NCBI RefSeq assembly: GCF_002355955.1
Contig: NZ_AP017368.1
Coordinates: 620,001-684,000, forward strand
Direction of reading: 5' to 3'
DNA length: 64,000 nt
Origin: Candidatus Desulfovibrio trichonymphae
Lineage (GTDB): Bacteria > Desulfobacterota > Desulfovibrionia > Desulfovibrionales > Desulfovibrionaceae
Shown here: positions 15,738 to 19,435 of the stretch, one piece after another
Numbering within the stretch: position 1 is the stretch's first letter
Layout: each line of letters opens with the position of its first letter
Program-made: the position numbers and the translations under genes
The notes under the pieces: generated by a model
Databases searched by the model: none
The model's input: only the letters and a program-made list of their open reading frames with translations
What the model was told of the DNA's origin: nothing

Positions 15738-15782
15738 TCTTGCATGTTCAGGCCGTCCCGTATTGCAGTTGAGGCGCAAAAC

Positions 15783-15829
15783 AGATGCGGCGCGGGCCGT
15801 CCCGTAAGGGCCGACACCGCGCCGCATCT
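15783..15829 (-). terminator. Intrinsic terminator of the autotransporter gene
   Basis: A 12-bp stem AGATGCGGCGCG / CGCGCCGCATCT encloses a small GGCC-based stem. On the minus strand TGTTTTG follows, giving a U-run directly downstream of the autotransporter stop codon. On the plus strand no T-run follows, but the hairpin may still slow readthrough from the carboxypeptidase gene. Confidence 0.75.
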
Positions 15830-15850
15830 GGTGACGTTGGCGGTTAACGC

Positions 15851-18800
15851 CTAGAATTCCAGTCCCACGCGGAGGGAACCGCTCACGCCTTCGCGTTTGC
15901 CGACATAGCCCTGCACGCCGAGATCAACGAGCCACGGAGATTTGCTGGAAGGTTTAAAAACCAAACCCGCTTCACCAATGCCCGTCTCTCCTTCGAACTT
16001 CGCAGCCTTGAGATCATAGCCCCATACAGACGCTCTTGCCTTGCCGTCAAATTCATATTCGAAGGCCGCACCGATATAAGGGCTGATATACTCGTTGATT
16101 GCATAGGCAAATCGAGCTCCGCCACGCAGACGATGAGAATCAATCGGATCAAAACTTACCGGTTCGCCTGTGGAAATTGTTGCGTCATTGCCGTCCTGGT
16201 GCAACCAGAAGTATTTGCCGTACACATCAAGAGAGGCTTCCTCGGTGATGTTCCACACATAGCCCACACCGGCGTGAATACCGTAATACGTCGATTCCGT
16301 ATCAAACGAGGCCTTGCGTCCGGAAACATCCTTCAGTCTGGTGGATTCATAATCATTATTGAGTCCACCGATGCGGGCCGCGGCTTCTGTATAGAAGTGA
16401 CCCGGGCCGACATCATTGAACTTTAAGTGACCCAGCAAACCGCCACCAATATAGGAAGTGTTGCCGCTTCCATGAATATCGTATGAAGCTCCACCATATT
16501 CAAAAAAGGCACCGGCAGTCAGTTTACCGATTTCCGTATTTATATTACGTGAAATACCGGCCATCAAATTTACACTGCTTGTGTCAATATATGAACCGGT
16601 GTTATAACGCATGCTGCTTGCATCAACAACAGCGAAAGCACCCCAGGCATCTTCTTTCGCAGAATTGATTGCGCTTCCCATACCTGCGCCTGCCGCAAGG
16701 TCCGCACCCTGATTGGCAAGAGCTGCCCCAACAGAGGCTCCTTCGGTTATCGATTTGGCACCGGGTACAACAGGAGTACCACCGCCGCCTGGGCCGTCAG
16801 ATTCAATAAGTTCAGCAACGAAGTCGTTGTCGCCGTCTTTCCTCAACTGAAAAGTGAATTCAAGAAGAGAACCGTGTTGTATTGTTTGAATTCCGCTGTC
16901 TTTAATATTACCTGCCAATTCTGTACTTCCGCGAAGCAGATAGTATTTGTCGCCAAACTGCAATGGTTCAACATCGCCAGAGAAATCTAGTTGTGGCCAC
17001 ATTCCATCAATACTGATGCTGTCCGCTGTAACAGTTAACACTGGATTATCTTGATTATTGACTGGAATACCTCGCAGATAAAATGCTAACATTCCTCTTA
17101 AATCGGCCGCATGCACAGTCATGCTGCTTCCAGGATATATATGCAGATTTGCATAACGACTCATATTAAAATCGTGATTGGGCGCATCCAAATTGAAACC
17201 GCTCATTAACGATGTATTAGTATACTGACGCAAATTGACAATATTTTTTTCAGCATCGGGCGCGTCTACAATAAACTTGTTATCGCCGCCCCAGTAAAAG
17301 TATCCATCCTGAGTAACTTCCATTCCGAATGTTTTACCGTTGTCCTGTTCCACATAGATGGGGTCATACAAATATACATCACCACCCGAGAATGGGGAAA
17401 TGACAAGAGTCGCGTCAGCATTGCTATGGGGTTCGATTATCGGTGTCGTCGATCGGATAGAGATGGAATTGGTCCGTTTTCCATCAATATCATTAATCTC
17501 GTTGTTCCGGAAAATCGTTGTGTTGCCGGCAGTTGCAACTATAGTTAAGGACAAAGTCCCAGAAGAAGCGGCGATGTCGGTGCCGGTATCCAGTGTAATG
17601 GCACCACCGTATACACGACCCGAATCATACGTCTGCAAAGAAGTAAATATATTATCTGTAAACTGACTATCAGTGACTGTCAAACTATCTTCAAGATACA
17701 GTATTCCGGCACGTATATTACCTCTTGCTGTAATTGTATTATCAGCAAATATACTGCCACTGATATCGCCTATTGTACTTGTTAAAGTACCAACAATACC
17801 GCCATTAATATCTATAGCAGAAATAACATTGTTGGTGAACGTACAATCAATAATATCGCCAATAGTACTCTGATTTAAAGCACCAACAATACCACCTGTC
17901 CAAAGTGAGCCCGTGGTAATTACAGTATTGTTATCGAAAACATTATTGACAATATCGCCTATTGTGCTGTATGTATCAGCACCAACAATACCACCACCAA
18001 CAACTCCAGAAGCAATGATCGTATTACCGCTGAATATGTTATCTGTAATATCTCCTATATATGTCCCATCGGCACTTTGCAGGTTATCAGTGTAAACTCC
18101 AACTATCCCACCACCACGAATTACTGCGTCGATTGTTACCGTATTGTCGCTGAATATATTGTTCTTAACGGCACCAATAGAGGCTGAAGCTTCCTGACTA
18201 CTATGAACACCAACTATCCCACCACCTGCCATAGTGTCGGCGATTGTTACCGTGTTGCCGCTGAATATATTGTTCTTAAGGGCACCAATGGCTGAAGCTT
18301 CCTGAACACCATAAACACCAACTATCCCACCACCACGCATTATTTCGGTGGCTGTTACGATGTTATCGTTAAATATACTGTTGCTGATATCGCCTATAGT
18401 TCCCCGATAGGCTCCGATAATGCCGCCACCCTGGAAATCGCCGTCTCCATTTTTTGTTACTGTGTTATTACTGAAAATAGCATTGTCGATGGCGCCTATC
18501 TGTTGATTCTCACCAGCTCTTAATACGCCGCCGCCTCGTAGATTGTCGCCCACCTCAAAGGTTACTGTATTATTGTTGAACACAATTTCACTAAGATTGC
18601 CGATATTGCCATATAGTACAGCATTGTTACCAGCATAATCCTTGAAATGGTATCCACCAAGATTTGTTGTTGGTTCAATCATCGCATCTGACGGAAAAGC
18701 TGTACCACCAAAACTGGTTATAGCAAGCTCTACAGCATCAGAAATAAGTTTTTTCAAACCGCCCGTTTCCCCTCTTGCTAGATCAATCAAGCCGGTGGAC

Positions 18801-18922
18801 AAGTCTGAAGGCAACTTTCCACCACCATTAAGATCTTCCGCCCGGGTAAAAAACGGATACGCTGTAAACATGGTTATGGTTATCAGAGTAACCATAAACT
18901 GCTTTACGTAGTTTCTTTTCAT
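15851..18922 (-). CDS. Autotransporter (type Va) with polymorphic repeat passenger
   Basis: This 1023-residue outer-membrane protein has a signal peptide (residues 1-28, ending FFTRA). The passenger (about 30-720) is built of roughly ten imperfect 28-34-residue repeats with the pattern IGDI.N.IF..NTV.......GGGIVG, as expected for a beta-helix. A Gly/Pro-rich hinge (SDGPGGGGTPVVPGA) precedes the C-terminal autotransporter beta-barrel (about 745-1023), which ends in the hydrophobic LRVGLEF. The ATG at 18922 has GGGGAAGGAATTT upstream. The passenger DNA is visibly more AT-rich than neighbouring genes, suggesting transfer or relaxed selection. A (GT)10 tract lies about 115 bp upstream. It is probably an adhesin or surface antigen; the ligand is unknown. 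Confidence 0.88.
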   Translation of the reverse strand: MKRNYVKQFMVTLITITMFTAYPFFTRAEDLNGGGKLPSDLSTGLIDLARGETGGLKKLISDAVELAITSFGGTAFPSDAMIEPTTNLGGYHFKDYAGNNAVLYGNIGNLSEIVFNNNTVTFEVGDNLRGGGVLRAGENQQIGAIDNAIFSNNTVTKNGDGDFQGGGIIGAYRGTIGDISNSIFNDNIVTATEIMRGGGIVGVYGVQEASAIGALKNNIFSGNTVTIADTMAGGGIVGVHSSQEASASIGAVKNNIFSDNTVTIDAVIRGGGIVGVYTDNLQSADGTYIGDITDNIFSGNTIIASGVVGGGIVGADTYSTIGDIVNNVFDNNTVITTGSLWTGGIVGALNQSTIGDIIDCTFTNNVISAIDINGGIVGTLTSTIGDISGSIFADNTITARGNIRAGILYLEDSLTVTDSQFTDNIFTSLQTYDSGRVYGGAITLDTGTDIAASSGTLSLTIVATAGNTTIFRNNEINDIDGKRTNSISIRSTTPIIEPHSNADATLVISPFSGGDVYLYDPIYVEQDNGKTFGMEVTQDGYFYWGGDNKFIVDAPDAEKNIVNLRQYTNTSLMSGFNLDAPNHDFNMSRYANLHIYPGSSMTVHAADLRGMLAFYLRGIPVNNQDNPVLTVTADSISIDGMWPQLDFSGDVEPLQFGDKYYLLRGSTELAGNIKDSGIQTIQHGSLLEFTFQLRKDGDNDFVAELIESDGPGGGGTPVVPGAKSITEGASVGAALANQGADLAAGAGMGSAINSAKEDAWGAFAVVDASSMRYNTGSYIDTSSVNLMAGISRNINTEIGKLTAGAFFEYGGASYDIHGSGNTSYIGGGLLGHLKFNDVGPGHFYTEAAARIGGLNNDYESTRLKDVSGRKASFDTESTYYGIHAGVGYVWNITEEASLDVYGKYFWLHQDGNDATISTGEPVSFDPIDSHRLRGGARFAYAINEYISPYIGAAFEYEFDGKARASVWGYDLKAAKFEGETGIGEAGLVFKPSSKSPWLVDLGVQGYVGKREGVSGSLRVGLEF
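18131..18336 (-). repeat. Near-identical tandem repeats inside the autotransporter passenger
   Basis: Two units of about 95 bp (18131-18226 and 18242-18336) differ at only a few positions. They share GTTGCCGCTGAATATATTG-like and GGCTGAAGCTTCCTGA segments and the ACTATCCCACCACC end. Neighbouring units are much more diverged. The pair points to a recent duplication, or to gene conversion within the coding repeats. Confidence 0.8.
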
Positions 18923-19036
18923 AAATTCCTTCCCCTGTTTTTATATGTAAACGATAATGCTGAATTCACCATGTCCGAAGGAAACGCCGAAAGCCGCGCT
19001 GAACCTTGCGGCGGACAGCGCGGCACTGCGGAGTTA
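18923..19036 (-). other. Upstream region of the autotransporter
   Basis: This region separates the autotransporter start from the GT tract. It holds the ribosome site (GGGGAAGG) and an AT-rich CATATAAAAAC stretch at about 18938-18950, but no consensus promoter. A plus-strand open frame across it is not supported. Confidence 0.4.
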
Positions 19037-19056
19037 GTGTGTGTGTGTGTGTGTGT
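19037..19056. repeat. (GT)10 dinucleotide tract upstream of the autotransporter
   Basis: Ten uninterrupted GT units lie 115-134 bp upstream of the autotransporter start. On the minus strand the (AC)10 run sits directly between TTGCTA and TAACTC. Those could be poor -35 and -10 elements, with the repeat forming the 19-bp spacer. Long dinucleotide tracts are rare in bacterial DNA of this composition. Confidence 0.9.
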
Positions 19057-19213
19057 AGCAAGAATCGGGCCGAAACCGTCAGCTTCGCCCGAATCTCTCT
19101 CCGCTCCGCGCGGGAAAATTTGTCCTTGCCCTGACCACATGCACTATGCCTTTACGTTACAATGCAAAAAACCATGAGGTTTTTCTCTCTATACAAACAA
19201 AATACGAAAACTG

Positions 19214-19435
19214 TCAAGCACAAATGAAAATTTTATTACCCGGCTGCCCGTTTCCCTGCAGGTTCATAATCCAGTGAGCCGCAGGCATGGGGCTTTGAAA
19301 GAGCCTGCCCGAGACGATCCAGCGGTCACTCTTTTTTCGCAGGGCAAGCCAGCTTGTCATTTTCGCCTGCGTGGTCACTTTTGCCACAACGGCGCTCTCG
19401 TTCAGAGGCAAAAAACTTGTGGCTGATTCCGGCAT
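19214..19435 (-). CDS. Possible small protein or gene remnant (73 residues)
   Basis: An open frame begins MPESATSFLPLNESAVVAKV at 19435 and continues through TSWLALRKKSDRWIVSGRLF. The alternating hydrophobic pattern ending in a Trp-Ile-Val strand resembles the last strands of NTF2/SnoaL-like domains. There is no ribosome site close to the ATG, and the piece would be only the C-terminal half of such a domain. It is probably a remnant. The call is tentative. Confidence 0.25.
   Translation of the reverse strand: MPESATSFLPLNESAVVAKVTTQAKMTSWLALRKKSDRWIVSGRLFQSPMPAAHWIMNLQGNGQPGNKIFICA

Follow-up and report, generated by a model that had tools for sequence, protein, structure and literature searches.

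Simple-repeat contingency loci are known mainly from mucosal pathogens and commensals, and a perfect dinucleotide tract in front of a surface protein gene of Candidatus Desulfovibrio trichonymphae, a Desulfovibrio symbiont of a termite-gut protist, raises the question of whether its length could act as a switch in such an organism and by which means. The tract, (GT)10 on the plus strand and (AC)10 on the coding strand, occupies exactly 20 bases (19037..19056, read on the minus strand) of the 64-kb stretch of DNA that was analyzed (64,000 bp; hereafter the window). The first-pass annotation had described it as a promoter element comparable to that of hifA/hifB in Haemophilus influenzae, where a (TA)n tract is the spacer between -35 and -10 and switches the promoter. 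Its position and its distance to the downstream gene had been given correctly, the two tract ends lying 115 and 134 bp upstream of the ATG at 18922. It is the only period-2 array in the window, and in the whole genome (a single contig of 1,410,056 bp, 1.41 Mb) direct reading and genome search located GT tracts of at least 7 units only here and in two identical copies of the same cassette, a fourth copy having 5 units and hence falling below the 7-unit threshold. By chance, a genome as large as this would be expected to contain approximately 1e-6 to 1e-5 perfect dinucleotide runs of 20 bases (1.4e6 × 2 / 4^20); like the tracts of contingency loci, this one is far longer than chance predicts.

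The gene downstream of the tract (15851..18922, minus strand) encodes a protein of 1023 aa with a C-terminal autotransporter beta-domain (PF03797, residues 777-983, E 6.3e-15), which bears out its earlier description as a surface autotransporter and places it in type V. Its passenger region contains a tandem repeat of 108-111 bp in about 2.7 copies (18093-18382). The leader and the gene are present in four full copies, at 252, 636 (window), 723, and 925 kb of the genome (genes at 252784-255852, 635854-638922, 722616-725684, and 924616-927684 of G000:C1), and the four proteins are all 1023 aa long and 100% identical. Over approximately 3.3 kb there are zero substitutions among them, and the sole difference is one indel inside the tract, with (AC)10 in three copies and (AC)5 in one, as read from an assembly, where errors can arise in the joining of identical repeats and in the sizing of long tracts. 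A single indel placed at random would fall in the 20-bp tract with a chance of about 0.6%. Variability of the tract, with flanks that stay constant, is thereby seen between otherwise identical copies within one genome (5 vs 10 units). Loss of mismatch repair was rejected as the cause of this length variation, as mutS and mutL are present with open (intact) reading frames.

Apart from the tract, the unit identical in all four copies covers 15851..19157 (minus strand), the common identity beginning just 5' of the leader ATG, and between the window copy and the 925 kb copy it extends further (15779-19268). The regions upstream have diverged into two types, alpha (window and 925 kb) and beta (252 and 723 kb); a promoter match of the TTGACA type is present in both. 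Four identical genes behind diverged upstream regions suggest, on comparison of the copies, gene conversion or recent amplification. In such a strongly reduced genome, the four identical genes may also give rise to rearrangements. Three further loci, at 57, 115, and 595 kb (L029, 52-64 kb; L030, G000 110-122 kb; L031, 590-602 kb), carry degenerate paralogues, which are deletion-type remnants of the same autotransporter; two of them retain the beta-type promoter region and lack the tract and most of the passenger.

Between the common start of identity and the gene lies a leader ORF of 73 codons (18919..19140, minus strand), defined by ORF reading and comparison, which starts at the ATG at 19140 with an AAAGG-type Shine-Dalgarno sequence and crosses the tract as (TH)n. 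Its end depends on the number of units. With n=10 the leader TGA overlaps the autotransporter ATG (ATGA), with n=5 the leader ends 46 bp before the gene after having crossed a hairpin (hairpin A, described below), and with n divisible by 3 it ends at a TAA directly after the tract, i.e., one of the three frames stops before hairpin A. The coupled frame is that of the three n=10 copies; the predicted OFF frame occurs in none of the four. An in-frame fusion of the tract to the window autotransporter was rejected, as a TAA at -21 closes the frame for every tract length. At a single locus an open frame is unremarkable (it was found in 39% of shuffles and is not significant), and the case for the leader ORF therefore rests on comparison across elements.

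Searching with the leader DNA brought up homologous leaders in G009, a termite-gut Desulfovibrio MAG (Hs463_bin8), and matches to the tract together with its neighboring motif in other species. This motif, GGCCCGATTCTTGCT (19057..19071, minus strand), adjoins the tract directly on its 5' side and, by comparison with relatives, is conserved; it has the spacing GG-N10-GC and resembles the -24/-12 elements of sigma-54 promoters. The genomes of the order (348, one per species, mostly draft) were searched with a pattern of GG, eight free bases, TTGC[AT] and AC repeats, and shorter tracts were additionally searched within the genus. The motif GGC[CA][CT]G-N4-TTGC followed by an AC tract occurred at approximately 95 places in 23 Desulfovibrionaceae genomes, which fall in 4 of the 59 genera of the order, and the reversed pattern gave 0 matches in the 348 genomes. 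Matches in G035, G040, G012, and G091 looked like chance. Positions left free in the pattern resolved to C, [CA], [TC], G, A, T, T, with C in 84/85, G in 78/85, and T in 75/85 and 77/85 elements. Tract length ranged from 4 to 43 units among the 88 homologous elements examined, lengths in the draft genomes being possibly imprecise. In seven genomes the number of (AC)8 windows was compared with the contribution of motif-linked tracts, and the two agreed exactly in six, with 2 of 79 windows unaccounted for in the other (G010). Long AC tracts thus occur at the motif and almost nowhere else, and passive expansion of microsatellites anywhere in the genome was rejected, since nearly all AC tracts of at least 8 units in these seven genomes sit at the motif.

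The cassette had no match to a known RNA family in Rfam at E up to 1 and none in viral contigs or plasmids. Many contigs break off at cassette leaders, as repeats would lead one to expect. The tract is followed immediately by a common sequence, TTGCATCCCACACTTC... or a near match, in L234 (G343_C34), L213 (G192_C151), L193 (G184_C111), and L203 (G187_C89), and a phage-type integrase gene lies downstream of the tract in G343_C34; the tract or the leader may serve as an integration site.

The elements were compared with shuffled sequences, a procedure that treats them as independent despite their common descent and so overstates significance. Of 84 distinct elements, 78 had an ATG no more than 100 nt upstream from which an open frame led into the tract (shuffled 50.8 ± 3.9); for the ATG with the highest-scoring Shine-Dalgarno sequence (4/6 or better) this was the case in 49 (expected 9.3). 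Most elements thus have the repeat inside a leader ORF with an SD-like ATG. Beyond the tract, 18 of 73 elements combined two early stops with one long frame (mean 1.8 and maximum 7 in shuffles), and 60 of 73 had at least one early stop together with one long frame (shuffled 21.7, maximum 31), the frame determining on which side of the hairpin the leader stop falls. Where the gene began no more than 210 nt away, one frame and no other led to it in 21 of 27 cases (shuffled 12.1 ± 2.4), and the ATGA overlap is present in 11 of 27 (shuffled 5.0 ± 1.7, the highest of 400 shuffles also being 11). From the predicted leader ATG, the current frame ends at most 20 nt past the tract in 40 of 79 elements, runs for more than 60 nt in 30, and lies between these limits in 9. 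The synonymous fraction in the G000 (window genome) and G009 leaders was 0.42 in frame vs 0.08 and 0.13 out of frame, a clear sign of codon-level conservation, and in the largest other group it was 0.31 vs 0.25 and 0.28, where such conservation is weak. This pattern would fit a leader in which the reading frame counts for more than the peptide, although the weak conservation in the largest group also speaks against the leader model. An in-frame fusion of leader and gene is possible in G036 only; there, L132 (G036_C10) carries an (AC)34 tract that apparently runs straight into the signal-peptide region of an autotransporter, the usual leader between them having been lost, and other G036 elements permit a fusion as well.

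Downstream of the tract, many relatives have a hairpin A (CGCGC...GCGCGG-TTTTG) and a hairpin B (GGCCCTGTTTCC...GGGCC-GTTTT), each with a T-rich tail, and a conserved TAACTCCGCCATATAACGCG sets stops in two frames just before hairpin A. RNAalifold recovered both hairpins, with compensatory changes in 9 of 14 pairs; covariation amounted to 25 double-change cells vs 10.0 ± 3.7 in shuffled alignments, and 89.7% of cells were paired vs at most 50% when the partners were slid. Hairpin A is identified at the window locus from the alignment of relatives (GCCGCGCTG...CAGCGCGGC then TTTCGGCGTTT; 18993..19024, minus strand) and is terminator-like, with a weak T-rich tail; hairpin B is missing.

From the observed copies, length variation, motif association, leader ORF, hairpins, and frame pattern we infer transcription, translation and switching of the cassette as follows. 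Transcription would begin upstream of the small leader ORF, which would be translated through (AC)n, and the gain or loss of a 2-bp unit would shift the frame after the tract. In the relatives, one or two of the three frames would usually end within about 20 nt, before hairpins A and B, and another would cross the hairpins, often stopping exactly on the downstream start codon. A ribosome in the through frame would prevent the hairpins from closing and would initiate anew at the gene (ON), and in a short frame the hairpins would form and transcription or translation would drop (OFF). In the window genome this mechanism would control the four-copy autotransporter. To the reading of the tract as the variable element of a phase-variable leader-ORF contingency cassette with translational coupling we give an even chance of being right.

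The closest known precedent is the Pil1 pilus locus of Streptococcus gallolyticus, in which leader-peptide GCAGA repeats have been shown experimentally to govern a premature terminator, the same principle being reported for Pil3 of this species (PMC3894217). Like these loci, the cassette has a non-triplet repeat inside a leader ORF whose length sets the leader frame and the position of its stop, a putative terminator-type hairpin between leader and gene, and a surface gene downstream. It differs in belonging to another phylum, in its AC dinucleotide in place of GCAGA, in usually having two tandem hairpins, in a long frame that often ends in an ATGA overlap, in its dozens of dispersed copies before many kinds of genes, and in the sigma-54-like motif that abuts the tract. 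Switching is established for Pil1 and predicted for the cassette.

At the window locus, where hairpin B has been lost, the tail of hairpin A is weak and the OFF frame is absent from all copies, the switch may be weak or decayed; on the proposed reading, hairpin A alone would still matter there. Taken further, these observations lead to an alternative that we regard as rather unlikely, namely that the tract is an inherited relic, prone to slippage, that works in relatives and is neutral or decayed in the reduced symbiont, with the four autotransporters expressed regardless. Apart from the lost hairpin and the missing OFF frame, it is favored by the shortness of the tracts, the reduced genome with its degenerate deletion paralogues, and the nearly clonal population of Rs-N31, for which a variation of only 0.027 SNPs and indels per kb was reported (PMC7608387). 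Against it stand the preserved identity of leader and gene across four copies, the persisting difference of these copies in the tract, and the intact leader ORF with its ATGA overlap at n=10.

The GG-N10-GC motif next to the tract is left unexplained by the leader-attenuator model; it may act as a promoter within the leader or have some other role. The main rival to the leader attenuator builds on this motif and is, in our judgment, unlikely: the motif would be a working sigma-54 promoter, the tract would span the melted region and the start (approximately -10 to +10), tract length would affect initiation, the RNA 5' end, or how far away the hairpins lie, and the leader ORF would be secondary. 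The pattern GGC[CA][CT]G-N4-TTGC[AT], in a context resembling TGGCACG/TTGCW, fits the Desulfovibrio sigma-54 consensus tGGcacg/tTGCt given in PMC4641369, and the conservation of the free pattern positions points the same way. A second type of element (G184, G187, G191) reads the motif, as GGCACR-N4-TTGC, in another frame and is accompanied by other hairpins, which argues that the motif is conserved as DNA; conservation at the peptide level was rejected as its reason on the same grounds. The sigma factor gene rpoN is intact in the genomes checked. Set against this, a start inside the tract would omit the leader ATG, contrary to the evidence for the leader ORF and the ATGA overlap, and the single enhancer-binding-type protein found in G009, a genome with six tract-bearing elements, has GAFTEA in place of GAFTGA; the window genome also has a GAFTEA protein and adds one further candidate of this type with GSFTGA. 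As in the sigma-54 promoters described in PMC4641369, a -24/-12-like consensus, here next to the tract, is associated with cell-exterior genes; unlike there, it is embedded in a predicted translated leader and its start is a putative one. The excerpt of PMC4641369 used here has no mention of an AC microsatellite at a sigma-54 start site.

That the tract is a spacer between a -35 box (TTGCTA) and a -10 box (TAACTC), with slippage altering the promoter spacing, is scarcely credible, since its 19-20 bp are of the right order in the window copy only and the 4-43 units of its homologues would make a spacer of about 8-86 bp, TTGCTA is the 3' end of GGCCCGATTCTTGCT and always stands on one side of the tract only, TAACTC, which is replaced in many elements, belongs to TAACTCCGC, where the structured part of the leader begins ahead of hairpin A, and a strict-consensus promoter scan picked up neither hexamer. 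Of the initial proposal of a phase-variation switch, the variable tract and the contingency-type gene downstream have thus held, and the hifA/hifB-like spacer has been given up. Both loci have a dinucleotide tract upstream of a surface adhesin gene; unlike in hifA/hifB, the AC tract is one-sided to a conserved motif, lies inside a leader ORF and has lengths incompatible with a promoter spacer. Simple sequence repeats of H. influenzae are among the subjects of PMC2651432. A sigma-70-like match, TTGACA-N18-TATAGA (alpha type; 19188..19217, minus strand), lies approximately 130 bp upstream of the tract and is shared with the 925 kb copy, although it was likewise not among the hits of the strict-consensus scan of the window. 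The copies at 252 and 723 kb have the diverged beta type TTGACA-N17-GTAAAA in the same place, and a similar TTGACA-N16/17-TGTAAA lies upstream of several elements in G009. These matches point to a probable transcription start upstream of the tract, or within it if the sigma-54-like motif is active.

Autotransporters follow the cassette in the window genome, G009, G036, and G185, and an inverse autotransporter in G192. Elsewhere the downstream genes encode glycosyltransferases, UDP-galactopyranose mutase, HD-GYP response regulators, hybrid kinases, chemoreceptors, FecR-domain proteins, lactate permeases, and other transporters, a spread that is typical of contingency genes and wider than surface structures alone. 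In G009, 18 stretches related to the autotransporter were found, many at contig ends (C37, C49, C50, C60, C62, C64, and others), i.e., a large adhesin family in another termite-gut Desulfovibrio with a small genome. Dinucleotide slippage that switches a reading frame is also described for oipA of Helicobacter pylori, where a (CT)n repeat lies in the 5' region of the gene itself (an abstract in PMC10564699); in contrast to oipA, the AC repeat lies in a separate leader ORF, with fusion to the gene possible in G036 only.

Across these genomes the cassette looks, from its DNA, like a family-wide on/off switch. In its widest form, which we consider improbable, this reading would combine both mechanisms in a family-wide contingency system of gut and symbiotic Desulfovibrionaceae, in which a modular cassette (leader ORF, sigma-54-like -24/-12 motif, AC microsatellite, and tandem hairpins) stands before up to a dozen unrelated genes per genome, for adhesins, glycosylation, c-di-GMP, chemotaxis, and uptake, the microsatellite both setting the leader frame and spanning a sigma-54 start, and each genome re-drawing its on/off states independently. 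No report of a simple-repeat contingency locus in sulfate reducers was found among the open-access full texts searched. The four adhesin copies that differ in the tract alone are a natural test of the switch inside one genome. If real, the cassette would mean that a leader-attenuator switch of the Streptococcus type exists elsewhere as a dispersed, genome-wide system, it would supply a sequence rule by which the ON or OFF state is predicted from n modulo 3, and it would explain expression heterogeneity in the Desulfovibrionaceae of animal and termite guts.
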